This document shows positions 5,929-63,725 of a stretch of DNA of 64,000 nucleotides, piece after piece. Below the pieces are notes generated by a model. That model was not told the DNA's origin and did not search any database. It was given only the letters and a program-made list of their open reading frames with translations. Where the stretch lies: NCBI GenBank assembly GCA_016290775.1, contig JAEEVF010000002.1:186001-250000 (forward strand), read 5' to 3'. The position numbers were made by a program, and so were the translations under genes. Every line of letters starts with the position of its first letter. Position 1 is the stretch's first letter. The DNA comes from Acetatifactor sp. GTDB taxonomy: Bacteria > Bacillota > Clostridia > Lachnospirales > Lachnospiraceae.

Positions 5929-5934
5929 TGAGTC

Positions 5935-5970: not shown

Positions 5971-5983
5971 ATACAAAAAATAT

Positions 5984-6043: not shown

Positions 6044-6079
6044 ACTTGAGTTTCAAAGAAAACCGTGGAGGTAGTAAAA

Positions 6080-6313: not shown

Positions 6314-6314
6314 G

Positions 6315-7241: not shown

Positions 7242-7316
7242 GGCACCACCGAGCAGCCAGAGCAACTGCTGGGAAGGGCCTGAGCAGGCCCAGATTCAAA
7301 CGAAAAGAGAGTACAT
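7242..7316 (+). other. Intercistronic hairpin between fabK and fabD
   Basis: This 75-base gap is the longest in the fatty-acid operon. It holds GGGCCTG-AG-CAGGCCC at 7276-7291, a strong short hairpin with no T-run, plus a weaker CAGC/GCTG fold upstream. It could stabilise or process the mRNA, or partly uncouple fabD expression. The ribosome site of fabD (AAAAGAGAG) follows it. Confidence 0.5.
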
Positions 7317-8231
7317 ATGAGTAAGATTGCAGTGATCTTTCCCGGGCAGGGGAGTCAGTACCTCGGCATGGGATATGATTTCTTTGAGGAGTTTTCCGTC
7401 GCCCGTCAAACCTATGAGCTTGCGGGCACGGCGGCAGGGCTGAACGTGAAGGCCTTGTGCTTTACGGAAAATGAAAGACTAAATCAGACGGAATATACAC
7501 AGATCGCCATGCTTGCGACGGAGGTCGCAATGTACAGGACGGCGGCTTCCCTGGGACTTCGCGCGGATGTTTGTGCGGGCCTTAGCCTTGGAGAATATGC
7601 CGCGCTCGCGGCTTCAGAAGTCATGGCGCTTACGGATTGTTTTCAGATCATCAGAAAGCGCGGAATGATCATGCAGGAAGCCTATCCTTCTGGCGGTGGC
7701 ATGGTGGCGGTCTTAGGGCTCACCGGGGAGCAGGTAGAGACTGCCATCAGCGGGATCGCCGACGTGTGGATCGCGAACTACAACTGCCCCGGCCAGATTG
7801 TGATCAGCGGCAAGCTTTCGGGCCTTGAGGAGGCAAGCGCAGCCCTGACGAAAGCAGGAGCAAGGCGCTGCGTTCCGCTGAAGGTGAGCGGCCCCTTTCA
7901 CAGCCCGTTGCTGGACGTTGCAGGGCGAAAGCTCCGGGAGGAGCTTCGCGGCGTGAACCTGGAAAACCCTTGGATCCCGTACGTGACCAACGTGGACGCG
8001 TCTTACGTGACGGACTGCGCAAGGGTCAAGGACTTGCTTGCCCGCCAGATCTACAGCTCCGTTCGCTGGCAGCAGAGCATGGAGCGTCTCATCGCGGACG
8101 GCGTGGACACCTTTGTGGAGATCGGCCCGGGAAAGACGCTGACGAGTTTCCTGAAGAAAATCGATCCAAAGGTCAAATGTTCTTCCATCGAAACGGTGGA
8201 AGAAATGAAGCGTGTCTTGGAGGAATTTTAG
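7317..8231 (+). CDS. fabD: Malonyl-CoA:ACP transacylase
   Basis: A 304-residue acyltransferase, the standard FabD length. The N-terminus has the FPGQGSQ motif; the nucleophile is Ser90 in GLSLGEYAAL and the partner His195 lies in GPFHSPLL. It moves the malonyl group from CoA to ACP, supplying the extender for FabF and FabH. It is followed directly, with no spacing, by fabG (stop 8229-8231, next ATG 8232), indicating translational coupling. Confidence 0.95.
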   Translation: MSKIAVIFPGQGSQYLGMGYDFFEEFSVARQTYELAGTAAGLNVKALCFTENERLNQTEYTQIAMLATEVAMYRTAASLGLRADVCAGLSLGEYAALAASEVMALTDCFQIIRKRGMIMQEAYPSGGGMVAVLGLTGEQVETAISGIADVWIANYNCPGQIVISGKLSGLEEASAALTKAGARRCVPLKVSGPFHSPLLDVAGRKLREELRGVNLENPWIPYVTNVDASYVTDCARVKDLLARQIYSSVRWQQSMERLIADGVDTFVEIGPGKTLTSFLKKIDPKVKCSSIETVEEMKRVLEEF

Positions 8232-8972
8232 ATGCTAGAGGGAATGATTGCATTAGTCACGGGGGCGTCCCGCGGGATCGGAAGGGCGATCGCGCAGAAG
8301 CTTGCAGAGCAAGGCGCGACCGTGATCGTGAATTATAGTGGCTCGGAGCAGGCCGCCAAAGAAACCGTGGAGGAGATCCTTCAAAAGGGCGGCAAGGCCG
8401 AGGAGATGAAATGCGACGTGTCAGATTTCGCGGCATGTGGGGATATGATCTCGAAGGTCCTTGAAAAATACGGCCGGATCGACATTCTTGTGAACAACGC
8501 GGGCATTACGAGGGACAATCTGATCCTTCGCATGAGTGAGGCGGAATATGACGGCGTCATGAACGTGAACCTAAAGGGCGCCTTTAACACGATCCGTCAT
8601 GCGAGCAAAGCATTCATCAAACAGCGGAGCGGCCGTGTCATCAACATTGCATCCGTCAGTGCGTTGCTCGGGAACCCCGGACAGGCGAATTATGCCGCTT
8701 CCAAAGCAGGCATGATCGGTCTGACAAGGAGTGTTGCGAGGGAGCTTGCGGTGCGAGGCATCTGCGTCAATGCAGTGGCGCCGGGCCTGATCGAATCCGA
8801 CATGACGGACCAGATGCCGCAGAAGGCAAAGGACGATCTGACGGAAAGAATCCCTCTCGGAAGAATGGGGAAGCCTGCTGACGTGGCGAACGTCGTGGCA
8901 TTTTTGGCGGACCCTGCCTCTTCCTATGTCACGGGTCAGGTGCTTTGCGTGGACGGAGGTTTGGCGATATGA
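8232..8972 (+). CDS. fabG: 3-oxoacyl-ACP reductase
   Basis: A 246-residue short-chain dehydrogenase. The NADPH-binding motif GASRGIG is near the N-terminus, NNAG follows, and the catalytic pair is Tyr154/Lys158 in YAASK. The C-terminus ([16 protein letters not shown]) is typical of FabG. It reduces 3-ketoacyl-ACP to 3-hydroxyacyl-ACP. It lies between fabD (abutting) and fabF (ATGA overlap). Confidence 0.95.
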
Positions 8973-10216
8973 GCAAGGGACGCAGGGTTGTGATCACGGG
9001 CATGGGCGCCCTCACGCCGATCGGAAACACGGTGCCGGAGTTTTGGCAGTCCGTGAAGGCCGGAAAAACAGGCTTTGGTGCGATCACACAGTTCGACGTG
9101 ACGGATTATGAATGCAAGATCGCGGCAGAGGTCAAGGGCTTTTGTCCCGAGGAATTCATGGAGAAAAAGGCGGCGCGCAGAATGGAACGCTTCGCGCAGT
9201 TTGCAGTCGCGGCTTCCGCGGAGGCGATCAAAAGCGCAGACCTTGACATTTCAAAGGAGGACGCATATCGCGTCGGCTGCGTGATCGGCTGCGGCGTCGG
9301 GAGCCTTCAGACCGCGGAGCGGGAATACACAAAGCTTACGACGCGCGGGCCTTCGAAGGTAGGACCTCTCATGGTGCCGATGATGATCTCGAACATGGCT
9401 GCCGGAAACGTCAGCATCCAATATGGTCTCAAAGGGAAAAGCCTCGACGTGGTGACGGCCTGCGCCACGGGGACCAATTGCATCGGCGAAGCCTTTCGCA
9501 CCATCCAATATGGCGATGCGGAGGTCATGCTCGCAGGAGGCACGGAAGGGAGCATCTGTCAGCTTGGCGTCTCAGGTTTTTCCGCCCTCACGGCGCTTTG
9601 TAAAAGCAATGATCCGGAGCGTTGCTCCATCCCGTTCGACAAGGACCGAAGCGGCTTTGTCATGGGTGAGGGCGCAGGGATCTTAGTTCTCGAAGAGCTT
9701 GAGCACGCAAAGGCCCGCGGCGCGAAGATCCTCGCGGAAGTCGTAGGCTACGGCTGCTCTTCGGATGCATATCACATCACGTCGCCGGAAGAAAGCGGCG
9801 AGGGCGCCGCGCAGGCCATGAAAAACGCCCTGCGGGACGCGGGAGTACAGCCTGCGGAAGTCTTTTACGTCAACGCCCACGGCACTTCCACTCATCACAA
9901 TGACCTGTTCGAGACGAGGGCGATCAAGCTTGCGTTTGGCGACCATGCCTACAAGCTCAAGGTGAATTCCACGAAGTCCATGATCGGGCATTTGCTCGGC
10001 GCGGCGGGCGCCGTGGAGCTGATCACCTGCGTGAAGGAGCTTGAGGAAGGTTGGATCCACCCGACCGTGGGCCTTCGCGAGCCCGACGAAGAGCTCGACC
10101 TCGATTATTGTAAGGAGGCTTGTGCATATGACGGCGAATACGCCTTGTCCAATTCCTTGGGCTTTGGCGGCCATAACGCAAGCTTGCTGATCCGAAAATT
10201 CGTGGAGGAATCATAA
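8969..10216 (+). CDS. fabF: 3-oxoacyl-ACP synthase II
   Basis: A 415-residue beta-ketoacyl-ACP synthase. The catalytic triad is Cys165 (TACATGTN), His304 (NAHGTST) and His341 ([11 protein letters not shown]). It condenses malonyl-ACP with the growing acyl chain. The start at 8969 overlaps the fabG stop as ATGA and has GGACGGAGG upstream; an earlier in-frame codon at 8945 would bury the start inside fabG. One base separates its stop from fabZ, where many related clusters carry accB. Confidence 0.95.
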
Positions 10217-10217
10217 C

Positions 10218-10649
10218 ATGTCAGTATATACGACAGCGCAGATCATGGAGATCTTGCCGCACAGGGCCCCGTTCCTTATGATCGATACGATCGAGGAGCT
10301 AGATCCGGGCACTCGGGCGGTGGGGCGCAAGTGCGTGACCTTTGGAGAGCCTTATTTTACGGGCCACTTTCCAGGAAATCCAGTGATGCCGGGCGTTCTT
10401 ATCGTCGAGGCCATGGCGCAGACGGGCGCAGTGGCACTTCTCGGTGAGCCGAAGTGGCGCGGGAAGACGGCATATTTCGCAGGCATAGACAAGGTCCGCT
10501 TTAAGAAGATGGTGCGTCCCGGTGACGTCCTTACCATCGAGACCAAGATCCTTTGGGTCAAAGGCCCCATGGGAAAAGGGGAGGCGACGGCCTGCGTGGA
10601 TGGTCAGGTGGCGGCAAAGGCGGAGCTTATGTTTGCGATCGGAGAGTGA
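10218..10649 (+). CDS. fabZ: 3-hydroxyacyl-ACP dehydratase
   Basis: A 143-residue hot-dog fold protein. The signature [19 protein letters not shown] contains the catalytic His50 and Glu64. It dehydrates 3-hydroxyacyl-ACP to the enoyl form used by FabK. No second dehydratase/isomerase (FabA or FabM) is visible, so how unsaturated chains are made, if they are, cannot be told from this window. The next ATG is 5 bases after its stop. Confidence 0.95.
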
Positions 10650-10654
10650 TCATC

Positions 10655-12487
10655 ATGAAAAGAGAATTTGGAAGGAAACACTGGCTCAGAGGGGCCTTGA
10701 AACTCGAGCCTCCAAAGCGCAACGTTCCAAAGTGGACGGAGAACGCAAAGGGCAGCGTGCAGGCCCAGCCCGCAGGGGCGGCGGATCCGCAGACGGCAAA
10801 GGCGACGGACCCCGCAACTTCGGTACCGGAGAAGAAAAAGGATGAGCCTTCCGATAAGATCAAGTGTCCCAAATGTGGGAAGCTTGTGGACAAGGCGAGA
10901 GTGGCGAAGCGCCGCTACGTCTGTCCTGAATGCAACGGGTATTTTCGCGTGACGACCGCGGCGCGTCTTCGCATGACGACGGACCGCGGAAGCTTTGAGG
11001 AATGGTTTGCAGACATGCCGGTGGTGAATCCTCTGGGCTATGAAGGCTATGAGGAGAAGCTGTCGCAGGCCAGGGAAAAGACGGGCCTTCGCGAAGCTTT
11101 CACGGTGGGAAGCTGCAAGATCTTCGGCGAAAAGGCCGTTGTAGGCGTCTGTGACGCCAGATTTATGATGGCAAGCATGGGGAGCGTATATGGCGAGAAG
11201 GTGACGGCCGCGATTGAGCGTGCCACGACGGAAAAGCTCCCCATGTTCTTGTTTTGCAGTTCGGGCGGCGCGAGGATGCAGGAGGGGATCATGTCCCTCA
11301 TGCAAATGGCAAAGACCTCGGCCGCGATCCGAAAGCACGGTGAGGCAGGCCTTTTGTACGTAACGATCCTGACGGATCCCACCACGGGCGGCGTCACCGC
11401 AAGCTTTGCGATGCTGGGGGACGTGATCATGGCGGAGCCCGGCGCACTGATCGGCTTTGCGGGTCCTCGCGTGATCAAGCAGACCATCGGACAAAAGCTC
11501 CCCGAGGGGTTTCAGTCAGCGGAATTCCTTTTGGAACATGGCTTCGTCGACGGGATCGTCAAGCGCATGAACCTCAAAAAGACCATGTATTTCCTGATCG
11601 TGACGCACAGGCAAAGGAAGGAAGGTTCCTTTGCGAACTTCATTGAAAACGGGGAAGGGTTTGTCCTGAGCGAGATCCTGAAGGAGCGAAGCGCCCTGAC
11701 GGAGAGCGTAAGCGCCTGGGACAAGGTCCGGGCCGCGCGCCACGTGGAGCGCCCCTCCGCGATGGATTACGTGGACAACATTTTTGATTATTTCGTCGAA
11801 CAGCATGGAGATCGGTATTTTGGGGAGGACGCGGCCATCGTCGGCGGCATCGCCTTTTTGGACGGCCAGCCCGTGACCATCATCGCGGACGTCAAGGGCA
11901 AGACCATGCGGGAATGCCAAATGAGAAACTTCGGCATGCCCCGCCCGGAAGGGTATCGAAAGGCGCTCCGCCTGATGAAGCAGGCGGAAAAATTCGGCCG
12001 CCCCGTCATCAGCTTTATCAACACGTCCGGCGCTTTTTGCGGCATCGAAGCGGAGGAGCGCGGGCAGGGCGAGGCGATCGCGAGAAACCTTCTTGAAATG
12101 GCCGGACTCACGGTTCCGGTGCTCTGCATTCTCATCGGGGAAGGCGGAAGCGGCGGCGCGCTGGCGACGGCGGTGGGCAACGAGGTCTGGATGCTGGAGA
12201 ACGCGACCTATTCCATCCTGTCGCCGGAGGGCTTTGCTTCTATTTTATGGAAGGACGCCACTCGCGCCAAGGAAGCCAGCGAGATCATGAATATCACCGC
12301 GCAGGACCTTCTTCGCCTGGGCGTGATCGAAAAGATCCTGCCGGAGTACGGCGGCGCAACGGCGCAGACGGCGAAAGCCATCGCGGGCAACATGAAAGAA
12401 GAGATCAAAGCATTCCTTCGACGCTTTGACGGCATGAGCGGCGAAGAGATCGCCGAGGGGCGCTATCAGAGGTTTCGAAAGTATTAG
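10655..12487 (+). CDS. accDA: Acetyl-CoA carboxylase carboxyltransferase, fused beta and alpha subunits
   Basis: One 610-residue chain. Residues about 60-340 are AccD, with a zinc ribbon (Cys71, 74, 90, 93) and the crotonase-like core ([21 protein letters not shown]). Residues about 350-610 are AccA ([36 protein letters not shown]). A low-complexity Ala/Pro/Lys stretch (30-65) precedes the ribbon. The N-terminal coiled region of standalone AccA is mostly missing, as expected for a fusion. It transfers carboxyl from biotin to acetyl-CoA. The biotin carrier (accB) and carboxylase (accC) are not in this operon. Start at 10655 chosen because the upstream in-frame codons lie inside fabZ. Confidence 0.93.
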
Positions 12488-48442: not shown

Positions 48443-48772
48443 GTGATAACCCTCCTTTAGGATTATTATATCCTACCCCCTGTGACCTCGGTCAAGCGCT
48501 TTGCCCAAAATGACAAGATATAGGCACATTTAGCAAGTATTGACATCGGCATGCATGACATCGGCATAGCCCGGAATAATATCGGCATATTCCCATGTCA
48601 AAATGCAAAAAAGATGAAATGTTTCAAGAAAAAAGTGAAAAAAAGTTGAAACGTTTCAACTTTTTTACATCTAACACTTGATGAAAGAGGGTTTTCATGA
48701 TAAGATTGGAGCATAAGAAAAGGCACTTTTGATGAGTGAAAGCATTAGGGTTTATGAGCGGAGGTGGAACGG
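48443..48772. promoter_or_regulatory. Divergent control region with LacI-type operators
   Basis: This 330-base gap between the aldo/keto reductase and the AAA/DUF4143 gene holds no ORF I trust. At 48639-48666 is a perfect 28-bp palindrome centred on TTGAAACGTTTCAA; at 48615-48626 is TGAAATGTTTCA. Their centres are 32 bases (three helical turns) apart. Both fit LacI/GalR-family sites. Downstream is a promoter for the + strand gene: TTGATG (48678-48683), 17 bases, TAAGAT (48701-48706). ATCGGCAT-type direct repeats (about 48545-48590) lie further left. Confidence 0.65.
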
Positions 48773-50071
48773 ATGTTTCGCAAATTCACGCAAAAACTAA
48801 AGAAATGGGAGACAGATAAAACCAGGGAACCAATGATGGTGGTTGGAGCAAGGCAGGTTGGAAAAACTTGGCTCATTAAGGAATTCTGCAAAGAAAACTA
48901 CAAGGACTATGTGTACGTAAACTTTGAGCAGGATCCGACCATGGAATCCGTTTTTGCAGGTTCGCTGAATCCCCAGGTCATCATTGAAAACCTGGAGATC
49001 GTTACGGGCAAAAGCATCGATCCTGACGTGGCCATTTTCTTCGACGAAATACAAAAATGCGAAAGAGCCATTATGTCGCTAAAATATTTCTGCGAAGGAG
49101 ATACGAATTACAGAGTTTTATGCGCAGGAAGCCTCTTGGGAGTGAAACTGAATCGTTATGACAGCTCGTTTCCGGTTGGAAAAGTCAAAATGGAAGAGAT
49201 GTTTCCGATGGATTTCGAGGAATTCCTGATCGCGATGGATGAAGACAAGCTAAGGGGTAGGATAGAAGCTGCCTGCAATTCCATGCAGCCACTGCCGGAA
49301 GCCGTGCATGACAGGGCGCTCAAACTGTACCAGTGCTACCTTTACGTTGGCGGCATGCCTCGATGCGTTACAGATTTCTTGAACAAGGAATGCAAGATCA
49401 CGGATTTTGACAGAAGCATTCAAGAAAACTTGCTTATGGCCTATGCGGCAGACATGAACAAATACACGGTCAGTGCGGCTGAAAGCATCAAGATCGGCGA
49501 AGTGTTTGCGTCCGTTCCCAGACAGCTTGCGAGGGAGAATCCCAAATTCAAGTACAAGGACGTTCGGCCTAATGCAAACAAGAGAGATTTTTATGGGGCG
49601 CTCGACTGGCTGGTAGCGGCGAAACTGGTTTACAAGGTCGTAAAAGTGGAGTATCCGCAGTCTCCTTTGAAGGTATATACTGACGAAGGAATGTTCAAGG
49701 TATATCTATCCGACGTTGGCTTACTTGCCTGTGCTGCGGGAATCGCATTGAAGGACATTCAGCCCGATACGGAAAACCTGTACAAGGGGATCTTGACGGA
49801 GAACTATGTCGTTCAGGAATTGAATTCACGCGGCATTTCAACCTTTTACTACAAGCCGGATGCGGGAATGGAAATTGACTTGCTTTTGGACGTGAATGGA
49901 AGCATCGTTCCCATGGAAGTAAAATCCGGCAGGCATGTCAGGTCGACAAGCCTCAAGAACTATGATGAAAAGTACCATCCAAGCGAAATGATAAGGTTGT
50001 CCTACAAGAATTTTACCGTGACTGATCGGCTAAAATCGGTTCCTTTGTACGCGTTGTTTGCGCTGTTTTAG
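48773..50071 (+). CDS. AAA ATPase with DUF4143 domain
   Basis: A 432-residue protein of the AAA_14/DUF4143 family. Walker A is GARQVGKTWL (about 25-34), Walker B-like IFFDEIQKCE. The C-terminal domain (about 210-400) contains YLSDVGLLAC, ENYVVQEL and the nuclease-like EIDLLLDVNGSIVPMEVKSG block. Members are widespread, often in many copies, and of uncertain role. Start 48773 follows GGAGGTGG; GTG at 48764 lies within that site. Confidence 0.88.
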   Translation: MFRKFTQKLKKWETDKTREPMMVVGARQVGKTWLIKEFCKENYKDYVYVNFEQDPTMESVFAGSLNPQVIIENLEIVTGKSIDPDVAIFFDEIQKCERAIMSLKYFCEGDTNYRVLCAGSLLGVKLNRYDSSFPVGKVKMEEMFPMDFEEFLIAMDEDKLRGRIEAACNSMQPLPEAVHDRALKLYQCYLYVGGMPRCVTDFLNKECKITDFDRSIQENLLMAYAADMNKYTVSAAESIKIGEVFASVPRQLARENPKFKYKDVRPNANKRDFYGALDWLVAAKLVYKVVKVEYPQSPLKVYTDEGMFKVYLSDVGLLACAAGIALKDIQPDTENLYKGILTENYVVQELNSRGISTFYYKPDAGMEIDLLLDVNGSIVPMEVKSGRHVRSTSLKNYDEKYHPSEMIRLSYKNFTVTDRLKSVPLYALFALF

Positions 50072-50785: not shown

Positions 50786-50823
50786 GTCAATTTTATCATT
50801 TGGGGGAAAATGATAAAATTGAC
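50786..50823. repeat. Perfect 16-bp inverted repeat at the edge of the accessory region
   Basis: Arms 50786-50801 (GTCAATTTTATCATTT) and 50808-50823 (its exact reverse complement) with six bases GGGGGA between. No T-run follows, so it is not a normal terminator. It lies 90 bases upstream of the deaminase gene and 35 bases before its promoter. Confidence 0.8.
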
Positions 50824-50857
50824 AGGTGGAAACGCTCGTTAATTTGCGTGGCATTGC

Positions 50858-50886
50858 TTGCGATTTCGATGGATTTTTGATATGAT
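50858..50886 (+). promoter_or_regulatory. Promoter of the deaminase/GIY-YIG/MazG/NERD operon
   Basis: TTGCGA (50858-50863), a 17-base spacer and TATGAT (50881-50886), 27 bases before the deaminase ATG. Confidence 0.6.
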
Positions 50887-50912
50887 TTTCTTGAGAAAAG
50901 GAAGATTTCAGA

Positions 50913-52046
50913 ATGGACAACAAACCGCAAACAACAACAATAATCATACTTTTCGCAGGCTTACTCATCTTTCTCGCTTTGGGGAACATGGACTTGGAGG
51001 GACAAGGCACTGCATTCGCAGAAGTTGTCATGTTTGTAATCGCGCATGCCAAGGATTTTGCCGCCTTGTTCGGAATAGCTTTGCTGGCAGTCGGTGTGTA
51101 TTATGCAATCGATGCGGTGGGGCAATTCCAAAAGATCCTTGAAGATGCTCGATATGTCAATGCCATAGATTACTTCTTGAACTGGACGGATGGGATTGAT
51201 AACGCATCAAAGAAAGCATTGGAAGAGGGGTATTTGAAGAATAAAAAGCATTGCATTTGCTTTGGTATACTCTATGATGGCACGAGAACGCAGGGTTCTT
51301 TCTTGTCATTTAGCGATGATAAACCAGAACACAATTTGATTGGTAAGAGATTCCAAGAAGGAAAAGAAGGAATTGAACGGTATTTTTGCCAATTTACCTA
51401 TGATGAGCTGGCTAATAAGGTGCCACTAGGGATGCCGGGGCCAAAGGGAGAATTGATCCAGCCGAGCGGTGAACTCTTTGACAGACAAAAGACGCGCCAG
51501 ACCTGCGCAGAAAGAAAGGTCGTTGCGAAGCTGGTTGATTTATATGGTTTGCAGGTACAGATTCCTGAAACGGAAAGTGCCGTGTTGGTTTTGCTTACGA
51601 ACTTCGAACCTTGTACAAATTGTAGTTCCATGATCCGAGACATAAACGAAAGGTGCGGGGATAAGTTTCAAATACAATCCATTTATGTTGATCTGATTGG
51701 CTATATATTACAGGAAAAAGACTCATTGCTCCGCATAAAGAAAGGGTATGAGCAGTCAATTGCTTCATATCAAAAGTTTTATAAATTGTTTGTGAAGCGG
51801 ACTCCCGCCATGGTACCAACGGAGAAGCAAAAGGCCAAACAAGAAGAACAGGCGATCAAGATGTTGCGCAGTACCGCAATCAAAATCGGAAAGGCAATGG
51901 CGCAAGGGGAATACGGTGATTTTGAGATCAAAAGAATCTTAAAGTGCTTTGTGAATTCTAATAGCAAAACGCAAGGAATAACTGAAGAACAAATAGATCA
52001 ACTATACAAAACAATTATTGAGCCACAGATAAAAAAGAGAAAGTAG
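50913..52046 (+). CDS. Membrane-anchored cytidine-deaminase-fold protein
   Basis: A 377-residue protein. Two helices at about 9-24 and 50-67 anchor it. The cytoplasmic part holds Cys198-Ala-Glu200 (TCAERKVVAKL) and Pro233-Cys234-x-x-Cys237 (FEPCTNCSSM), the zinc-site and proton-shuttle pattern of the deaminase superfamily ([HC]xE...PCxxC), with Cys rather than His in the first position as in several bacterial toxin-type deaminases. The tail (240-377) is helical and Lys-rich. Whether it acts on a nucleotide, DNA or RNA is unknown. First gene of a four-gene operon; GAAAAGGAAG precedes the ATG. Confidence 0.8.
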   Translation: MDNKPQTTTIIILFAGLLIFLALGNMDLEGQGTAFAEVVMFVIAHAKDFAALFGIALLAVGVYYAIDAVGQFQKILEDARYVNAIDYFLNWTDGIDNASKKALEEGYLKNKKHCICFGILYDGTRTQGSFLSFSDDKPEHNLIGKRFQEGKEGIERYFCQFTYDELANKVPLGMPGPKGELIQPSGELFDRQKTRQTCAERKVVAKLVDLYGLQVQIPETESAVLVLLTNFEPCTNCSSMIRDINERCGDKFQIQSIYVDLIGYILQEKDSLLRIKKGYEQSIASYQKFYKLFVKRTPAMVPTEKQKAKQEEQAIKMLRSTAIKIGKAMAQGEYGDFEIKRILKCFVNSNSKTQGITEEQIDQLYKTIIEPQIKKRK

Positions 52047-52075
52047 AAAATTGCCGCATCAATCAGGAGGTCCGC

Positions 52076-53734
52076 ATGATTACAATCAAGGAGTTTGAGT
52101 ATTCCGTAAATGCCCTAAAAGACATGGAACGGTCATGGTATGCGAAAAACTGGCCGGTTGTATATATCATGCATAACGATACGGATGCATATGTTGGCGA
52201 GACGCTGGACGGAATCCGTCGGACGAAGCAGCACCTGGATGAGGAAACGGACACGGACTATAAGCTCATCTGCATGCTGACGAACAAGGATTTCAACAAG
52301 TCTGTCGTTCTTGACATGGAGTCCTTCCTGATCAAATATATGAGCGCTGACCAGAAATACCGCTTGCACAACGGCAACGCGGGCGTGGTGAATCACAACT
52401 ATTTCAATCGCGAGATCTATCAAGATGATTTCAGGGAGGCGTGGTCGAAGCTGCTGGATCTTGGCCTGGCAGACAAAACGCTTGAGGCCATCGAGAATTC
52501 GGACCTGTTCAAATACTCACCTTATAAGGCGTTGACGGAAGAGCAGAAGGATGCGCTATACAGGATCATGAATGCCATTAAGAAACACAATGTCAGCGGC
52601 AATCAAAACCTCATTGTCGTAAACGGCGAGGCCGGAACGGGCAAGACAATCCTTGCCGTTTATCTGATCAAGCTTCTCAAGGAAATCACAGATCAGAAGT
52701 TGTCGTTTTATCCCGATGAAGACGGCATTGACGGCATGGATTATCTCAACGCGTTTGCGAAAAAGATAGGAAACATGAAGGTTGGTTTTGTCGTTCCGAT
52801 GCAATCACTGAGAGAATCGCTAAAGGGCGTATTTTCTGGCGTTGATGGCTTGTCGCCGGACATGATCATCAAGCCAACGGATCTTGAGGATGACGTGTAT
52901 TACGATCTTCTTGTGGTTGATGAGGCGCATAGGCTTCACAGACGCAAGAATTTGGCGCAATATCCCTTGTTCGATAATGTGAACAAAAAGCTTGGACTGG
53001 ATGAAAACGGAACGGAATTGGATTGGGTCATCAAGCGAAGTCGTATGCAGTTGATCTTTTATGATTCAGCACAATCGGTACGGCCTTCCGACATTGACCG
53101 CACGCAATTCCAGACCATCGTTGACCAGCATCAATGTGAGCAGATCGAACTGAAGTCACAGCTTCGCTGCAAGGGCGGAAATGACTATGTCGAATATGTG
53201 AAAAATGTGCTCGAAGGCATGGCCCGCAAACGGCAAGATAACTTTGGAAATTACGATCTTAGATTCTTTGATAATCCCGATGAACTGGTTGTAGAGATCC
53301 AGAAAAAGGACAAAGAGTATGGCCTGTGCCGGATGGTCGCGGGTTATGCGTGGGAGTGGAAATCAAAGGCTGACAAAAATGCATATGATATCACCTTGAA
53401 TGGTAAGGACTATCGCTGGAACACGAAGGCCGTGGACTGGATCAACAGTGACAATGCGGTGAACGAAATAGGCTGCATTCACACGGTTCAAGGATACGAT
53501 CTGAACATCGCTGGAGTAATCTTTGGCGAAGACATCTATTATGACAAGGATGACGATTGCATTAAGATCAATTCTTCGAAATACTACGATAGCCTCGGAA
53601 AGACGAAGGATGCTGACAAACTGAAGGAATACATCGTTCACATCTACGAGACATTGATGACGCGTGGAATTCAGGGAACCTATGTATATGTCTGCGATCC
53701 CGCGCTTCGCGAATATCTGAGAAAGTATTTTTAG
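52076..53734 (+). CDS. GIY-YIG nuclease fused to a DUF2075 (Schlafen-3-like) helicase
   Basis: A 552-residue protein. Residues about 27-100 are a GIY-YIG domain (VVYIMHNDTDAYVGET, then GIRRTKQHL with the Arg and His positions). Residues about 155-550 are the DUF2075 ATPase: Walker A GEAGTGKT (184-191), Walker B VVDEAHRLH (281-289), HTVQGYDLNIAGVIFGED near the C-terminus. DUF2075 is an SF1-like helicase family found in phage-defence genes and beside MazG-like genes. AGGAGG precedes the ATG. Starts 29 bases after the deaminase. Confidence 0.88.
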   Translation: MITIKEFEYSVNALKDMERSWYAKNWPVVYIMHNDTDAYVGETLDGIRRTKQHLDEETDTDYKLICMLTNKDFNKSVVLDMESFLIKYMSADQKYRLHNGNAGVVNHNYFNREIYQDDFREAWSKLLDLGLADKTLEAIENSDLFKYSPYKALTEEQKDALYRIMNAIKKHNVSGNQNLIVVNGEAGTGKTILAVYLIKLLKEITDQKLSFYPDEDGIDGMDYLNAFAKKIGNMKVGFVVPMQSLRESLKGVFSGVDGLSPDMIIKPTDLEDDVYYDLLVVDEAHRLHRRKNLAQYPLFDNVNKKLGLDENGTELDWVIKRSRMQLIFYDSAQSVRPSDIDRTQFQTIVDQHQCEQIELKSQLRCKGGNDYVEYVKNVLEGMARKRQDNFGNYDLRFFDNPDELVVEIQKKDKEYGLCRMVAGYAWEWKSKADKNAYDITLNGKDYRWNTKAVDWINSDNAVNEIGCIHTVQGYDLNIAGVIFGEDIYYDKDDDCIKINSSKYYDSLGKTKDADKLKEYIVHIYETLMTRGIQGTYVYVCDPALREYLRKYF

Positions 53735-53757
53735 CACTTTGAACGGAGGAATGCATC

Positions 53758-54078
53758 ATGGATTTCAACGAAACATGTAATAGAATTGCGCAGTTCACCA
53801 AGGACCGTGACTGGGATCAGTTTCACAGTTCAGATAATCTTGCAAAGTCTATTGCAATTGAGGCTGGAGAACTTCTCGAATGTTTCCAGTGGGGCCCTTG
53901 CACCGACAAAAATGAACTGCGAGAAGAACTCGCGGATGTCATGAATTACTGCATCCAGCTGGCCCAGAAGGAAGGCTTTGACATTTGTGAGATCCTGAAT
54001 GAGAAAATCGATAAGAATGAAAAGAAATACCCAGTGGAAAAGAGCAAAGGCGTAAGCACAAAGTACGATAGGTTGTGA
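53758..54078 (+). CDS. MazG-like nucleotide pyrophosphohydrolase
   Basis: A 106-residue all-alpha NTP-PPase. Metal-binding residues Glu35, Glu38, Glu57 and Asp60 form the ExxE...ExxD motif (AIEAGELLECFQW, EELADVMNYC). Relatives hydrolyse (d)NTPs to monophosphates; in a defence setting this could empty nucleotide pools or remove a signal. It lies 23 bases after the GIY-YIG/DUF2075 gene. GGAGGAA precedes the ATG. Confidence 0.9.
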   Translation: MDFNETCNRIAQFTKDRDWDQFHSSDNLAKSIAIEAGELLECFQWGPCTDKNELREELADVMNYCIQLAQKEGFDICEILNEKIDKNEKKYPVEKSKGVSTKYDRL

Positions 54079-54100
54079 TGGCAAACGGAGGCTTGATATT

Positions 54101-54715
54101 ATGAATGTCATGCCATATTGGGTGCTTGGCTTAATTGTTTTGGCGGCAGTGTTATGCATCATATTCTTTATCTGGTTGGCCCTCAAGGTCGGCGTTCGGC
54201 CGATCGAGTTGCCGGAAAAGCGCGCGGGGCGGCTGGGTGAAAGGTTTGCATATGAGGTGATTAGCGAAATCCTTCGGAAAGACGATGTTTTGCTGACCAA
54301 CATAACCGTAACCTTTGATGGAAAACAAGCAGAGTTCGATGATGTCATTATCAATTCAACTGGCGTATATATCATCGAAGTGAAGAATTACAGCGGTGAG
54401 CTGTTTGGGGATGAAGACGATTGCGAGTGGATTAAAAACAAGATGACGCCAGGCGGCCAATTCTACCAGAAAACTGTCAAAAACCCCATCAAACAAGTAA
54501 AACGCCAGGTAAACGTGCTGTCGCAGTACTTGCAAAATAATGGTATCAATGCCTGGATCAAGGGCTATGTTTTCTTTGTTGAACAGAATTGCCCGGTGCA
54601 GAGTGAATATGTTCTCGCAACCCAGCGCGACATAGATGAAGCGGTCCACAGACCTGGGGATGAGACGCTGGATGAGAGGACGATAGACAGGATACGGGAA
54701 GTGTTGAAAGGCTAG
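54101..54715 (+). CDS. Membrane-anchored NERD-domain nuclease
   Basis: A 204-residue protein with an N-terminal helix (about 6-28) and a NERD domain (about 45-150): GRLGERFAYEVI, DDVIINSTGVYIIEVKNYSG (the D...ExK nuclease core) and IKQVKRQVNVL. NERD proteins are predicted nucleases of the restriction-endonuclease fold. Last gene of the operon, 22 bases after the MazG-like gene, and followed by a terminator. Like the deaminase it is tied to the membrane. Confidence 0.88.
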   Translation: MNVMPYWVLGLIVLAAVLCIIFFIWLALKVGVRPIELPEKRAGRLGERFAYEVISEILRKDDVLLTNITVTFDGKQAEFDDVIINSTGVYIIEVKNYSGELFGDEDDCEWIKNKMTPGGQFYQKTVKNPIKQVKRQVNVLSQYLQNNGINAWIKGYVFFVEQNCPVQSEYVLATQRDIDEAVHRPGDETLDERTIDRIREVLKG

Positions 54716-54717
54716 GT

Positions 54718-54753
54718 AAAAGACTCAGAAGATGATATTCTTCTGAGTCTTTT
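54718..54753 (+). terminator. Terminator of the four-gene operon
   Basis: AAAGACTCAGAAG, 8-base loop, CTTCTGAGTCTTTTT: a 13-bp perfect stem with T-run, three bases after the NERD stop. Confidence 0.92.
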
Positions 54754-55170
54754 TGGTTCACAAGAAAAATTTTTAGAATGTGTAAGGCACCATGCTGGTA
54801 AAGATATCGTGTAATTCATTTGTCAACATTAAGTTAAATTGTCTGTAAAAGGGTATGTTGTCGAACTTCATATGCTTATTATACTTTATGTGGTGGTCCA
54901 AAACAACAAGGAATTCAAGGGAATTCTAAGCAAAAGAGTCCTTTATATTGCCAGATTAGAATTCTCGCTTGGAATGTGCTGCATGGGCGAAAATGAGATT
55001 AGCAGTAATAAAAAATATCAAAAAGCAGATTTGCGAGTGATAAAACAGCACTATAAATGGACTTTAGAAAAATTTAATGATATTTCTGTGGATAAATAAT
55101 TGCATTTTCTGATTTTGGGTGTATAATGTAACTGTAAGAGTTTTCCACTCACAAAGGAGGTTATGTATTA
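54754..55170 (+). other. AT-rich gap with no firm gene, ending in a promoter
   Basis: No protein-coding gene can be supported in these 417 bases. A frame open from 54839 to 55099 (up to 86 residues) lacks a ribosome site and known features; it may be a gene remnant. Near the right end TTGCAT (55100-55105), 16 bases and TATAAT (55122-55127) form a promoter for the XRE gene at 55171. Confidence 0.55.
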
Positions 55171-56340
55171 ATGGCTAAAGATCAATTAAGTGTAGAAGGG
55201 TATTTGCCTAGCCTTGGCGAACTGTTAGGGTCCGCTAGGGAGAAGTATGGTTTTACCAAGAAAGAGATGGCTGAGAAGTTTGGGTTTGATGAATCGACTT
55301 ATGGCAGACTGGAAAATGGGAAAACTCGAAAAATGAATTCAAAGGAGATCGAAAAACTCAAACAAATGGCACCGTATATCGGTGTGCCTTATTCTGAATT
55401 GCTGGCGGCGGCCGGATTAAGTTCTGAGATGAAAAGGGAAGTGCTTTATGATTTCGACGGATCAGAAATTGATTATGCGTCGGCAGTCAAGTTTCTGTAC
55501 AAAGCCGATCCCAAGTTGTTTTCATATGCTGAAAGTATAGGCAAAATGCCGCTTAAAAGAATAAAACTGCTTGAGAAAATGATTGAAATGTTCCTGGACA
55601 GTGAACTTGAAAAGGATCCCTCCAAGAAACTCATTGCGGATAATATCACGAATAATCTCGAACTATATGGCATGAGAAGCGGTGTAAATCGGGCGAAAGC
55701 GGCTTTGGAGGAGTGGGGGCTAGAAACAAGGAACAACTATGGGTTCAGAAATAACGAGGTTTTTGTAATGCCTTCGAAGAGGCCGTTATCTATAGCTGAG
55801 GAGTATGAACGGATGGCGGCTTACGAATATGCGGTCGTCAAGACAAAGCAACCACGCGGTATCAGTGCCTATAATGCGAATTTTGATTTTCGGAATTTGA
55901 GGTTCATGACATGTATTACATTCGAAATAGATTCACGGTATAAAGCTAGTATTCAAATGCATTGTCAAAGCATGATTGATGAGGATGAAATAATGGGTTT
56001 GATGCAAGGGTTCAGTAATGTACACATAATACCCGGGGTTGTGATGTTCGAAGATGCCTCAAGCGGAATTGATGAAGATGAGAATGGATGGGATGTGAAT
56101 TATATCGGAACCGTTGGTTCGATTCATGAGCAAGAGGCATACTTCAAAGTTCAGGAACTAATATCTCATCTAAAGAAATATGGTGGCGGAACGGTTACGC
56201 TAAGCGATCTCGGTCGAAGTGACTTGGAGATGTGGGGTGTAGCACTGGGATATCAAAGGAAAATGGAACAGATAATGCAACAAAGGGCAAACAAAGCGCA
56301 AAAAGAAAACAGCGAAAGGATATCGCAAATGGAGAAATAA
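55171..56340 (+). CDS. XRE-type helix-turn-helix protein with a large C-terminal domain
   Basis: A 389-residue protein. Residues about 12-75 are an XRE domain (LLGSAREKYGFTKKEMAEKFGFDESTYGRLENGK). The remaining 310 residues are not assigned; a conserved-looking part at about 225-345 (DFRNLRFMTCITFEIDSRY, DVNYIGTVGSIHEQEAYF) may sense a ligand. AAAGGAGG precedes the ATG. It heads a set of two unknown genes and is AT-rich. It could regulate the neighbouring accessory genes. Confidence 0.8.
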   Translation: MAKDQLSVEGYLPSLGELLGSAREKYGFTKKEMAEKFGFDESTYGRLENGKTRKMNSKEIEKLKQMAPYIGVPYSELLAAAGLSSEMKREVLYDFDGSEIDYASAVKFLYKADPKLFSYAESIGKMPLKRIKLLEKMIEMFLDSELEKDPSKKLIADNITNNLELYGMRSGVNRAKAALEEWGLETRNNYGFRNNEVFVMPSKRPLSIAEEYERMAAYEYAVVKTKQPRGISAYNANFDFRNLRFMTCITFEIDSRYKASIQMHCQSMIDEDEIMGLMQGFSNVHIIPGVVMFEDASSGIDEDENGWDVNYIGTVGSIHEQEAYFKVQELISHLKKYGGGTVTLSDLGRSDLEMWGVALGYQRKMEQIMQQRANKAQKENSERISQMEK

Positions 56341-56361
56341 TGAGCTTTAGGAGGTGTAACA

Positions 56362-56778
56362 ATGCCGATCGAGGAAAAATTCACATGGTTGATGAAACTG
56401 AAAAAACAATTTATACCCAGTCAGAAAAGTGACGAGGTCGGTGAAGCGTTTTCAAAGATGAGAGACATGGCAACACAGCTGGAAGTAGAGATTTCAAGGT
56501 GTTGTCCGATGAATGGGGCGCGGGAGGTCCCTGTCATGTGGTGGGACGGCCTGTCAGGAGCATATAGAATTGCTTATCCGGCAGAGGCTGACAGGGAGGT
56601 TATAGTTGGCCTCGTTACGATGGCAGTGCTGCTGATCATTTTCTCGCATTCAAATAATCGTTTCAGCTATGAATCAATCAACGGATATGACAACATGGGT
56701 GATTATTTTACAGAAAAAATCTGTGATGAGACAAGTAAGATCGTGCAGGTATTGCAGAAGTGGGGAATCACCTATTAA
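56362..56778 (+). CDS. Hypothetical protein
   Basis: A 138-residue protein with TTAGGAGGTG before the ATG, 21 bases after the XRE gene. It has a basic helical N-terminus and one hydrophobic stretch (about 74-92, VIVGLVTMAVLLIIF) that could be a buried helix or a membrane segment. No family recognised. Its place between an XRE regulator and a DisA_N-like gene suggests one operon. Confidence 0.7.
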   Translation: MPIEEKFTWLMKLKKQFIPSQKSDEVGEAFSKMRDMATQLEVEISRCCPMNGAREVPVMWWDGLSGAYRIAYPAEADREVIVGLVTMAVLLIIFSHSNNRFSYESINGYDNMGDYFTEKICDETSKIVQVLQKWGITY

Positions 56779-56822
56779 CGGCATTGTTCCAACGTGTATC
56801 ATTTGGCGTGTGAGAAGGGAGT

Positions 56823-58001
56823 GTGAATAGCTCGGTGAATTGTGAATTAAACTACAAATATCACAAGTTCTTGACGAGTATTCTGAAGGATGCGATATCT
56901 TATTTTTGGCCCCCGAGCAGTGGACCAACCATGAAATGCCGCATTCTCGAGGAGCGTTGCCAGCCAGAGGGGAGTATTTGGGAAAAGGCATTTGATCTGC
57001 CTGGGGGAGAAGTAAACCTTCGCATGATGGCGGAGGGGGAGTTTTATGGCCTTTTGCATGAAAGCTATGTGGCGTATGGAGAGCATTCTGTATTGCCTGA
57101 CCTAATGTATGCCATCCTTGACACGATTTATGAATGCCTGAAGGCATGCCAGAATGATGACATTAGGTACCCCACGAAGTTTGCCTGGGAGATGGTAGGG
57201 CGCACCGTCGTAAACGAGTATTGTCGTCGGCATGGTTTGTTGGGGCTTGAAATGTTCTCAGCGCTGTCGCAGATTTATTACGAAGGACATGAGTGTGAGG
57301 GAAAGATGATTTATTGCGATTCCAATGTGCTTTCGGGTGACATCATTCGTTTTGAACAACCACTCCGATTGGAAGGGTCAAATCAGAAGAGAATTCGTAA
57401 GCTTTTGGAAGCGACTGGCGATGAGAAGTATCTGCTGGTTGATATTGGAAATTCTCAGATCATTGGCATTGGACAGCTGGAAGCTCCGAGCGGACTGGTT
57501 GTTGAGTTTTGCGGTTTCTCTCAGTGGAGAGTTACTTACGAAGGCAAGACTGTGTTTGAGTGCAAGTGCGGGAATTACAAGCTTGTGAAGACTCAGAATG
57601 AGAATATTTCCGGCGAGGAGCTGAAGCGCTATAAGAAGCTTATTGACCTAATCGTGAAAAACAAGCACGGCGCGTTGATCGTCCAGAGCGACCATGCGGA
57701 AGAGGAGGCAACGAGACTGTGTGATTTGGAGCGCGGATACAAGATCAAGAGAATTGATGTTTCCCACAATCAGGACTTGATCGAGATGGCAACAAGAATT
57801 GACGGTGCCATTATGGTTGATGAGAAGGGATGTTGTTATGCCATGGGAGTGATCCTCGACGGCCCGGCTGCTAAGGGCAATCCGGAAAAGGGTGCGCGGC
57901 ACAATTCGGCGAAATCATATGTTGCATGGCGAAAAAAGAAAAAGGAGCACATTAAGGCGATTGTAGTTTCTGAAGACGGACCGGTAACGGTTTTCGATTG
58001 A
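56823..58001 (+). CDS. DisA_N-like nucleotidyltransferase/sensor-domain protein
   Basis: A 392-residue protein. The last 120 residues align by eye with the diadenylate cyclase (DisA_N) fold: KHGALIVQSD, then Asp327-Gly328-Ala329 (the DGA motif), then Arg359-His360-Asn361 (GARHNSAKSY) where active enzymes have RHR, and IVVSEDGPVTVF at the end. The altered RHR suggests a weak enzyme, or one of the proposed DAC-type sensor domains that bind rather than make c-di-AMP. Residues 1-270 are not assigned. GTG start is uncertain: the site GAAGGGA lies only a few bases before it. Confidence 0.7.
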   Translation: MNSSVNCELNYKYHKFLTSILKDAISYFWPPSSGPTMKCRILEERCQPEGSIWEKAFDLPGGEVNLRMMAEGEFYGLLHESYVAYGEHSVLPDLMYAILDTIYECLKACQNDDIRYPTKFAWEMVGRTVVNEYCRRHGLLGLEMFSALSQIYYEGHECEGKMIYCDSNVLSGDIIRFEQPLRLEGSNQKRIRKLLEATGDEKYLLVDIGNSQIIGIGQLEAPSGLVVEFCGFSQWRVTYEGKTVFECKCGNYKLVKTQNENISGEELKRYKKLIDLIVKNKHGALIVQSDHAEEEATRLCDLERGYKIKRIDVSHNQDLIEMATRIDGAIMVDEKGCCYAMGVILDGPAAKGNPEKGARHNSAKSYVAWRKKKKEHIKAIVVSEDGPVTVFD

Positions 58002-58154: not shown

Positions 58155-58535
58155 ATGACAAAAAAGGACATAGAGCAGTATCTTTCCGAGGTGAAGGATG
58201 CTGTGAAAAAGGGGAATTACAGGATTGATCGGAACGCCAGGCGGCAGGATAACATTAATCTGTTTCTGGATTACGTGATTGATGAGGCGAAGGCCAAAGA
58301 AATCATATTAAACCTTACTGCAATGGATTTTTCGGGGATCTTGAGGAATGAACACAAGGGGTTTGAACATGAGAAGCTGTATGTATTTGGCAAGGATGTC
58401 AAGCTTTTGGAGAGAACTGGAACGAAAGTGAAAACGGTGTCGTTGTACATCAAATTCAACAAGCTGAAGAACTGTTTTGTGATCGTCGTTTCGTTTCACG
58501 AACAGAAGCATCCGCTTACATACTATTTTCACTAA
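58155..58535 (+). CDS. MqsR-family toxin
   Basis: A 126-residue protein. It lines up by eye with MqsR of Escherichia coli over its length: EVKDAVKKGNYRI, NLTAMDFSGILRNE where MqsR has GLSESDFYKSM, and VSLYIKFNKLKNCFVIVVSFHEQ where MqsR has VYLKITVIHDVLIVSFKE. MqsR is an mRNA interferase that cuts at GCU. The catalytic residues were not checked. The antitoxin gene follows by 27 bases. The ribosome site is poor (GGGGGTTA), which fits low toxin output. Confidence 0.78.
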   Translation: MTKKDIEQYLSEVKDAVKKGNYRIDRNARRQDNINLFLDYVIDEAKAKEIILNLTAMDFSGILRNEHKGFEHEKLYVFGKDVKLLERTGTKVKTVSLYIKFNKLKNCFVIVVSFHEQKHPLTYYFH

Positions 58536-58562
58536 CCACAAATCATATCGGAGGTGTTAATG

Positions 58563-59573
58563 ATGGCTGATAAGGGAAGAAGGGACTTTTGCATCGAGTG
58601 CAGGAAAGAGACGGAGTACTTTTTGCAGAAGCGGGATATTGTAAAAAACATTAGGGATAAGGAGTTTGTCTTCACGATCACGGTGGCGGTGTGCGCGGAG
58701 TGCGGCGAGGAAATGAGCATTCCCGGGCTCATGGATAAGAACGTGCAGGAGATCGACGAGCAGTACCGGGCGGCAGAAGGGCTGGTGTCGATCGATGACA
58801 TTGAAAAGCTGATGAAGGTATATAAAATCGGCAAAGCGCCGCTGTCTCTGGCGCTTGGATTTGGCGAGGTGACCATCACGAGGTACCTGGAAGGACAGGT
58901 GCCTTCGAAGGAATATTCTGATGTCATCAAAGAGGCGCTTTCATCCCCGGCATACATGAAGCGGCTCCTTGTGGAGAACCGCGAGAAGCTGACGGATGCG
59001 GCGTACAGGAAGGCATATGCGGCGGCCGAAAGCATTGAGAGTCTGTTTTCTGTTTCGGATAAGATGCTCAGCGTGATCGCATATATCTTCGAAAGGCTCG
59101 AAGAGGTGACGCCGCTGATGCTACAGAAGCTCCTTTACTTTATCCAGGGCGTTTATTCCGCACTTTATGGGAAGCCGATCTTTGAAGAGGATTGCAGGGC
59201 GTGGGTGCATGGCCCGGTTTATCCTGAGGTTTACGAACTGTTCCGGGATTTTAAATATAACCCGATCGAGGACGCGCGGTTTGCGCTGTTAGAGGGCGCG
59301 AAGGGTGCCTTGACGGAGGATGAGAAGCATGTGATCGATCTTGTTTTGAATACGTTTGGGATGTATGGCGGGAAGGTTTTGGAAAAGATCACGCACAATG
59401 AGGAGCCGTGGATGGAAGCGCGAAAGGGGTACGGAGACGGCGTCCCGTCCAATGAGGTTCTGCAGAAGGAGCGGATCATGAAGTATTACATTCTGATCAA
59501 CCAGAAATACGGCATCGGCACGGAGGACGGCCTTAGGACCTATATCCATGATATGCTCGCGAAGGCATCGTGA
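58563..59573 (+). CDS. Antitoxin with an MqsA-like zinc/HTH part joined to a Panacea domain
   Basis: A 336-residue protein. Cys10, Cys13, Cys44 and Cys47 are a zinc site (DFCIECRK, VCAECGEE), as in MqsA. Residues about 70-115 are the HTH (PLSLALGFGEVTITRYLEGQVPSKEYSDVI). Residues about 165-290 are the Panacea (DUF4065/SocA-like) domain (LQKLLYFIQGVYSALYGKPIF, AWVHGPVYPEVYELF). Panacea proteins neutralise many unrelated toxins. The N-terminal part probably represses the promoter at 58068. The start has GGAGG 8 bases upstream; an ATG three bases earlier is also possible. Confidence 0.88.
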   Translation: MADKGRRDFCIECRKETEYFLQKRDIVKNIRDKEFVFTITVAVCAECGEEMSIPGLMDKNVQEIDEQYRAAEGLVSIDDIEKLMKVYKIGKAPLSLALGFGEVTITRYLEGQVPSKEYSDVIKEALSSPAYMKRLLVENREKLTDAAYRKAYAAAESIESLFSVSDKMLSVIAYIFERLEEVTPLMLQKLLYFIQGVYSALYGKPIFEEDCRAWVHGPVYPEVYELFRDFKYNPIEDARFALLEGAKGALTEDEKHVIDLVLNTFGMYGGKVLEKITHNEEPWMEARKGYGDGVPSNEVLQKERIMKYYILINQKYGIGTEDGLRTYIHDMLAKAS

Positions 59574-62802: not shown

Positions 62803-62851
62803 AAAAAACTTGTTTGTCCAACTTGAACAAACAAGTTTTTTGCGTTATAAT
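62803..62851 (+). promoter_or_regulatory. Promoter set in a 15-bp inverted repeat, before the DUF3990 operon
   Basis: AAAAAACTTGTTTGT (62803-62817) and its exact complement (62827-62841) flank CCAACTTGA. TTGAAC (62823-62828), 17 bases and TATAAT (62846-62851) form a promoter whose -35 sits in the loop and right arm. The repeat can end the upstream transcript and can also serve as an operator for the HTH domain encoded next. Confidence 0.75.
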
Positions 62852-62873
62852 AGTCGCAAAGGAGCTGATTGAA

Positions 62874-63725
62874 ATGATCAAAGTTAATTGCGATTACAAG
62901 ATAAAAGAAGATGTCCAGTTCATTTTGGAGGCAGAAAAGATCACTGTCGCTGAGCTTTCCGAGCGTACAAAGATATCCAGAACTACGCTGGAAGAAATTG
63001 AAGAAAAGGGTGTGACGACGGAAAGTGTTTGTGAGAAGCTCTATTCGTATGCATATGAAGAAAACTACAGGATCAATTCCGTCAAAGAAGAGTTCATGAA
63101 GGAGAAATCCAAGAATGTTCTGTTCCACGGCTCCAAGGCGGGCCTGTCGGAGATCACGATTTCTGGTGCACGGGCGAACTGTGATTTTGGAAAAGGGTTC
63201 TATCTCGGAGAAACCTATGCGCAGGCGCTGGCATTTGTTTGCGAGAATGAGAAGTCGTCGGTATATTCCTTTGCATATTCTCTCGAAGACCTCAAAATAA
63301 AAAGGTTTGATTGTTCCATGGAGTGGATGATGGCCATCTGTTATCACAGAGGCACGCTGGGCGCATACTCCAAGAATGCAATGGTTCGCTCGATCGTTGA
63401 CGAAATTGAAGCATCGGATGTGATCATCGCGCCGATCGCAGACAATAAAATGTTTTATATCATGACGCAGTTTACCGACGGAGAAATCAATGCTGATGTG
63501 GCGCTGCATTCCTTGTCGGCATCCAGACTGGGGCTGCAGTATATTTTCAGGACGGACAAAGCCTTGGAAAAACTGACGCCGATCGAAAAACACTATCTGT
63601 GCATTCCGGAACGCGAAGACTGCAAGAAGCTATTAAATGAGCGAAGCTATGAGATTGACACGAAGCTGAAACTCGCCAAAAGAGAGTTTAGAACGGGGTT
63701 GTACATTGAGGAATTATTGAAATGA
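62874..63725 (+). CDS. HTH-DUF3990 protein (ADP-ribosyltransferase-like toxin)
   Basis: A 283-residue protein. Residues 1-65 are a small HTH (VAELSERTKISRTTLEEIEE). Residues about 80-245 are DUF3990: LFHGSKAGLSEI, GARANCDFGKGFYLGETYAQALAFV, a distant relative of ADP-ribosyltransferases, where HG and the Y/GFY positions bind NAD. Members are associated with toxin-antitoxin modules. The start at 62874 follows AAAGGAG; the ATG overlap with the next gene (ATGA) shows co-translation. Target unknown. Confidence 0.82.
   Translation: MIKVNCDYKIKEDVQFILEAEKITVAELSERTKISRTTLEEIEEKGVTTESVCEKLYSYAYEENYRINSVKEEFMKEKSKNVLFHGSKAGLSEITISGARANCDFGKGFYLGETYAQALAFVCENEKSSVYSFAYSLEDLKIKRFDCSMEWMMAICYHRGTLGAYSKNAMVRSIVDEIEASDVIIAPIADNKMFYIMTQFTDGEINADVALHSLSASRLGLQYIFRTDKALEKLTPIEKHYLCIPEREDCKKLLNERSYEIDTKLKLAKREFRTGLYIEELLK

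Follow-up and report, generated by a model that had tools for sequence, protein, structure and literature searches.

The window analysed here is a stretch of 64,000 nt from Acetatifactor sp. (Lachnospiraceae; assembly GCA_016290775.1, contig JAEEVF010000002.1, forward-strand positions 186,001–250,000), and our subject is an operon of four plus-strand genes within it. Gene 1 (50913–52046, 377 amino acids) carries two N-terminal hydrophobic segments and a predicted deaminase-fold domain with the motifs C198-A-E200 and P233-C234-x-x-C237. Gene 2 (52076–53734, 552 amino acids) joins a GIY-YIG domain to a Schlafen group 3 (DUF2075) helicase. Gene 3 (53758–54078, 106 amino acids) encodes a MazG-like pyrophosphohydrolase of the dCTP pyrophosphatase 1 (DCTPP1) type, and gene 4 (54101–54715, 204 amino acids) has one N-terminal hydrophobic segment and a NERD (nuclease-related) domain. 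A first-pass annotation of the sequence had described these genes as an operon with gaps of 22–29 bases, and the coordinates of the open reading frames (ORFs) bear this out, with intervals of 29, 23 and 22 bases between successive genes. The operon of four genes is real.

The signals around the genes agree with that description in part. Shine–Dalgarno sequences, said to be good throughout, are strong at genes 2–4 (AGGAGG, GGAGG and GGAGG) but weaker at gene 1 (AAGGA). Beyond gene 4, a terminator-like hairpin with a T run (54718–54757, plus strand) has stem arms at 54718–54732 and 54739–54753 that are complementary at 15 of 15 positions, in keeping with the strong terminator noted earlier; the hairpin at 54718–54753 is nevertheless absent from the listing of a simple terminator scan. 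The single promoter fared worse. A promoter-like site with an extended −10 element is present on the plus strand at 50858–50886, 26 bases before gene 1, and nine sigma-70-like sites were seen against 9.4 expected from shuffled sequences, so that neither the number of sites nor a single promoter rises above chance. The perfect 16-bp inverted repeat described 5′ of gene 1 does exist (50786–50801 and 50808–50823, no strand assigned, 16 of 16 positions complementary, 6-base loop), and it bounds the left edge of the operon by position only. Because the exact palindrome occurs in a single copy in its own 3.19-Mb genome, we rejected the idea that it is the end of a multi-copy mobile element; it is possibly an operator or a hairpin.

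The domain names given in the first-pass annotation stand above the Pfam cut-offs for the helicase, MazG and NERD proteins, but the deaminase and GIY-YIG assignments fall below them. For gene 2 the helicase matches PF09848 at an E-value of 2.2e-66 (225 bits against a cut-off of 24), and the N-terminal GIY-YIG domain is seen at E 0.095. Residues Y30, Y39, G41, R49, E82 and N99 of the GIY-YIG domain are invariant in 79 of 79 aligned sequences and H53 is kept in 78; the helicase residues K190, D282, E283 and H285 (Walker A and DEAH-type box) are likewise invariant in all 79. By sequence criteria, gene 2 is a GIY-YIG nuclease and a Schlafen group 3 helicase, with DNA cutting as its predicted activity.

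Gene 3 matches the MazG-like family PF12643 at E 2.3e-18 (66.7 bits, cut-off 27). Among solved structures, the nearest to it are those of mouse RS21-C6 and of human dCTP pyrophosphatase 1 (E 1.4e-16), with E. coli MazG following far behind at 0.02; gene 3 has the motif RDWxQFH and the C-terminal motif YPVxxSxGxxxKY in common with DCTPP1/RS21-C6. These are kept in 64 and 66, respectively, of the 74 MazG ORFs from the loci described below. The preferred substrates of DCTPP1 are dCTP and forms of it that carry methyl or halogen groups (PMC4491611); it hydrolyses 5-methyl, 5-formyl and 5-halogenated dCTP (PMC7162842, PMC4491611) and makes dCMP that feeds dCMP deaminase (PMC7162842); a mycobacterial MazG cleans up 5-OH-dCTP (PMC3855555). 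In gene 4 the NERD domain matches PF08378 at E 1.4e-23 (83.9 bits, cut-off 22.1), and a stretch reading E-F-D-D...E-V-K can be picked out by eye; a search of solved structures with this protein gave no match. The authors of PMC12839542 regard the NERD domain of BREX PglW as a nuclease effector. The membrane ties proposed for the first and last proteins were recovered as N-terminal hydrophobic segments, two in gene 1 and one in gene 4, by Kyte–Doolittle hydropathy only. Against the PADLOC models, genes 1 and 3 gave no match, and genes 2 and 4 matched larger models only in part.

The assignment of gene 1 required closer inspection. Pfam returned three matches up to E 0.5, all of them deaminases aligned over the same residues (PF00383, E 0.0033; PF14424, E 0.043; PF14440, E 0.18), of which PF00383 reached 17.7 bits against a cut-off of 25 and PF14424 14.4 against 29.6; PADLOC, NCBIfam and PHROGs gave no match. 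A PF00383 search of the host genome matched four deaminases, gene 1 not among them. Searches of 5.8 billion proteins with the whole protein, an alignment and residues 176–275 returned only gene 1 itself and one relative, P0002, which is 52% identical, lies on a 2.7-kb contig and keeps both the hydrophobic segments and the CAE/PCxxC motif. P0002 also stays under the curated deaminase cut-offs; its Pfam ranking places a phage-holin family first, over the transmembrane (TM) part, followed by two of the deaminase families matched by gene 1. When a profile of the soluble parts of gene 1 and P0002 was compared by hhalign with 14 housekeeping deaminases of relatives (from 30 loci, of which 15 gave no ORF under the rule used and one long ORF was dropped), the probability was 68.7 with a P-value of 4.6e-5, and the two zinc motifs, H/C-x-E and PCxxC, fell in register with those of known deaminases: C-A-E opposite H-A-E, and EPCTNC opposite EPCQMC. 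The probability stayed at or below 2.0 in forty column shuffles and was 0.1 for the helicase profile. The profile check suggested by the first-pass annotation thus favours a deaminase in the family matched and in the register of the motifs, but every cut-off is missed. Gene 1 likely adopts a deaminase fold, although this is not proven.

If so, the family is by present sequence collections a very rare one. A profile search found 171 patterned stretches in genome contigs and 147 in viral contigs, none of them a relative; plasmids and phages gave no match at E-values up to 1; and solved structures gave chance-level matches only (best E 0.1). Three weak matches in genus genomes (E 0.002–0.01, ORFs of 352–355 amino acids) were dismissed as chance, since by their sequences they read as site-specific recombinases. 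The variable presence among relatives that the annotation had proposed as a check applies to the helicase, which is patchy (9 of 146 relatives' genomes, its own included), but for the deaminase there is a single occurrence, that of its own genome, in 138 genomes of the genus. The helicase occurs also in 38 of 72,556 plasmid records and 4 of 50,697 phage records.

To see which genes travel together, we used the best 80 of at least 291 helicase loci confirmed in named genomes. This choice favours close relatives, and some genera, such as Marinobacter, Microbacterium and Cryobacterium, are represented more than once. In 73 of the 80, drawn from several phyla, mazG is adjacent to the helicase gene on the same strand: tblastn placed it upstream in 71 and downstream in one, and the abutting gene of locus L034 was added by hand. 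At L051 mazG is on the opposite strand. The order seen here, helicase then mazG, is shared with L014, L020 and L082; most loci have mazG first. The deaminase was found in none of the 80 loci. Single sequences served as queries for NERD genes and other partners, so that divergent ones can be missed; NERD adjoins the pair at two loci, at L057 on the same strand and 25 bases beyond the helicase, at L046 on the opposite strand. A motif scan for deaminases in picked ORFs of 88 loci gave three matches; that of L098 is a 163-amino-acid ORF that looks like an ordinary deaminase about 7 kb from the helicase, those of L092 and L093 look like chance, and none was retained. The conserved unit, as judged from gene neighbourhoods, is thus helicase plus MazG, and the locus is a widespread helicase–MazG core with a rare, possibly unique, set of partners. 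Two related helicases (L018, 6300–8237; L019, 932–2857), one of them beside mazG, carry in place of GIY-YIG another N-terminal region, nuclease-like by eye; from these, the nuclease domain of such helicases may be exchangeable.

The neighbours of the pair were examined for defence-like genes. The core nearest to ours among the 80 loci is that of Butyrivibrio sp. NC2002 (L082; helicase 67% identical, MazG 79%), where the order is HNH, PLD-DUF3427, NUDIX-methyltransferase, helicase, mazG and then a macro-domain gene. The PLD-DUF3427 protein falls into the PADLOC class of type IV methyl-directed restriction enzymes (2.7e-241), and DUF3427 is predicted to bind modified DNA (PMC7159879). Strong PLD-DUF3427 (SauUSI-like) relatives adjoin the pair in 6 of 80 loci (L024, L026, L028, L076, L077 and L082), weak ones in three more; in all six strong cases this is the sole DUF3427 gene found in its genome. 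As a control, 40 of the 80 loci, hand-chosen and mainly on longer contigs, included 15 genomes with one DUF3427 gene, which is helicase-adjacent in six of these, against a chance expectation of about 0.05 (a rough estimate, 10 kb in 3 Mb). NUDIX hydrolases accompany the enzyme in five of the six strong loci, and C5 methylases and MTaX1-HNH genes occur in four loci each. The pair thus keeps restriction company, with partners that change between loci. The setting is also restriction-like at L013 (G002, 5904–10803), where a GIY-YIG helicase without mazG has a C5 DNA methylase on one side and a Schlafen AlbA_2 gene on the other. An unverified phage contig from human faeces (L111, MT836409.1, 3459–8713), which may be bacterial DNA, carries a PLD-DUF3427 enzyme, mazG and a GIY-YIG helicase consecutively.

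Base composition sets the region apart. By gene, GC content is 42–47% from 50.9 to 58.5 kb and 57–58% in the acetyltransferase gene to the left and in the gene at 59741 and the M48 gene to the right, a pattern as for acquired DNA. An empty site was not shown: relatives of the M48 gene occur in 6 of 138 genus genomes, and at the three loci compared no other gene of the window matched. Just downstream of the operon (55171–57998) are an XRE regulator (389 amino acids), a 138-amino-acid ORF and a DACNH-DAC protein (392 amino acids; DACNH 3e-12, DAC 4e-10) whose C-terminal part alone matches NCBIfam DS2_3_antiphage (155 bits, cut-off 630); this is possibly a second conflict locus. A toxin–antitoxin-like pair follows at 58155–59573, consisting of a 126-amino-acid ORF with a weak MqsR match (E 0.026) and a 339-amino-acid MqsA-type/SocA Panacea protein (PF13274, 2e-26). 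Farther out lie an HTH and DUF3990 protein with a weak PARP-like match (62814–63725; PF13151, 4e-33) and, to the left, an AAA_14/DUF4143 ATPase of 46% GC in the PADLOC candidate family PDC-S01 (48764–50071; 3e-150).

We favour, with a probability of about 0.4, the reading that the operon is an anti-phage defence in which foreign DNA is cut and cytosine nucleotides are drained at the same time. The helicase would translocate on invading DNA, which its GIY-YIG domain would cut; MazG would convert dCTP, perhaps also 5-modified dCTP, to dCMP, and the deaminase would convert dCMP to dUMP, a succession known from DCTPP1 and dCMP deaminase of human cells; and the NERD protein would cut DNA a second time on the inside of the membrane, at the point of phage DNA entry. 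Helicase and MazG would form the core, to which the two membrane proteins would have been added locally as a set of partners, and the locus is probably a modular defence module that swaps partners. A defensive role is suggested by the SauUSI-like and C5 methylase neighbours, by the DACNH-DAC and toxin–antitoxin-like genes downstream and by the patchy presence of the helicase; judged from these neighbours, anti-phage use is plausible.

Several observations weigh against this reading. The claim that the four genes are one conserved system, which the first-pass annotation had staked on their being found together elsewhere, is not supported: no deaminase relative came up in the 80 named loci or in 398 genomes of the phylum, nor, its own genome apart, a true one in 138 of the genus (the P0002 contig lies outside these), and only helicase plus MazG recurs. 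MazG itself is not obligatory, because 6 of the 80 loci have a helicase without it and, among eight other loci of relatives, mazG is adjacent in four and not in four (two of them at contig ends). Most of the 80 loci have no defence gene recognised by the probes used. The identity of the deaminase comes from sub-threshold profiles of two sequences, and its two AlphaFold models are unusable (mean pLDDT 39.8 and 38.4). For gene 3, dCTP as substrate is assigned by analogy with its relatives.

It is somewhat unlikely, in our estimation, that the operon holds two independent units, a helicase–MazG pair forming a complete defence or repair module and a deaminase and NERD protein that are neighbours in the same low-GC island and share no function with it. 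The pair does occur without further partners in most loci, its nearest relative in Butyrivibrio NC2002 has other partners, NERD is near it in 2 of 80 loci only and once on the opposite strand, and the island itself differs in GC from the flanking genes. Yet the gaps of 22–29 bases and one terminator serving all four genes speak for a joint unit, and the NERD gene of L057, 25 bases behind a helicase on the same strand, is a second, independent pairing. Doubts about gene 1 itself lead elsewhere. There is a slim chance that it is an orphan membrane protein with a fortuitous CAE/PCxxC motif and no deaminase at all, given the missed cut-offs, the three other libraries without a match and the poor models; that all three Pfam matches are deaminases over the same residues, that the motif is kept in a protein only 52% identical and that hhalign far exceeded its shuffled and helicase controls argue otherwise. 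Slimmer still is the chance that gene 1 is a membrane-held nucleic-acid deaminase, akin to toxin deaminases, whose targets for mutation or editing would be the DNA or RNA of incoming phage instead of nucleotides: its second and third Pfam matches (PF14424 and PF14440) are of toxin type and C-A-E replaces H-A-E, but the top match is PF00383 and relatives of the partner MazG act on dCTP.

An unlikely alternative is surveillance of modified cytosine, in which the helicase-nuclease would cut modified-cytosine DNA while MazG and the deaminase clear modified dCTP from the pool, by way of modified dCMP and on to a uracil-type nucleotide; the phage would be starved and the host's DNA would stay unmarked. 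The hydrolysis of 5-methyl, 5-formyl and 5-halogenated dCTP by DCTPP1, the recurrent type IV methyl-directed neighbour with its predicted modified-DNA-binding domain, the NUDIX hydrolases beside that enzyme and the existence of CMoRE, a GIY-YIG enzyme that cuts 5hmC DNA (PMC12923530), are in line with it; however, gene 2 shows no modification-sensing domain, and the type IV enzyme could be a mere island neighbour. Less likely again is its fullest form, a cytosine-nucleotide immunity in which the GIY-YIG Schlafen-type helicase would cut modified-cytosine phage DNA while the DCTPP1-like partner and a membrane deaminase of a new family turn modified dCTP into uracil nucleotides, with both attacks at the membrane.

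If the phage-defence reading is true, the widespread helicase–MazG pair would form a defence core, so far undescribed, in which the cutting of DNA is coupled to regulation of dCTP levels. It would also place a relative of the Schlafen helicase domain, from bacteria, in a defence setting; the recurring type IV-like neighbour would connect the pair, in a concrete way open to testing, with modified-cytosine phages, and the deaminase would represent a very rare family. In the open-access literature we found no paper on the helicase–MazG pair, on the Schlafen group 3 helicase by that name, on DUF2075 in phage defence or on MazG with a deaminase and a helicase in phage defence; PMC12839542 cites a preprint about the anti-phage role of bacterial Schlafens that may touch on this helicase.

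Known systems resemble parts of the operon. Human DCTPP1 and dCMP deaminase follow the same logic, dCTP to dCMP to dUMP, as genes 3 and 1 (PMC7162842). They differ in having no defence role, no membrane attachment and unlinked genes. The SauUSI-like type IV enzymes (PLD, helicase, DUF3427) that neighbour the pair in six loci are also nuclease–helicase fusions, but of other nuclease and helicase families, and none is present in this operon. Among defences that act on nucleotide pools are dCTP deaminase and RADAR. The Clover dGTPase is another (PMC12265719). The attack on nucleotide pools proposed here is of the same kind; unlike Clover and RADAR, the operon has no dGTPase and no RdrA/RdrB, its predicted deaminase is of another, unassigned family and a nuclease-helicase adjoins it. 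SNIPE, a GIY-YIG nuclease bound to the membrane that cuts phage DNA on its way into the cell during injection (PMC13190303), shares with our operon the GIY-YIG domain and a membrane anchor within the system. In SNIPE, however, TM, DUF4041 and GIY-YIG form one protein, whereas in our operon GIY-YIG is combined with a helicase and other proteins carry the anchors; gene 2 has no DUF4041 among its Pfam matches and no evident TM segment, gene 2 being outside the hydropathy scan. CMoRE (PD-T4-3), a type IV restriction enzyme, likewise has an N-terminal GIY-YIG domain and a C-terminal partner domain, but it consists of one gene whose product includes a modification-sensing domain, whereas here a helicase follows GIY-YIG and MazG accompanies it. 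The helicase–MazG pairs of public genomes, for which we found no system name, have the same adjacent genes in 73 of 80 loci and the same catalytic residues, GIY-YIG with DUF2075/SLFN-g3; what distinguishes the Acetatifactor operon from them is one membrane gene before the pair and one after it.

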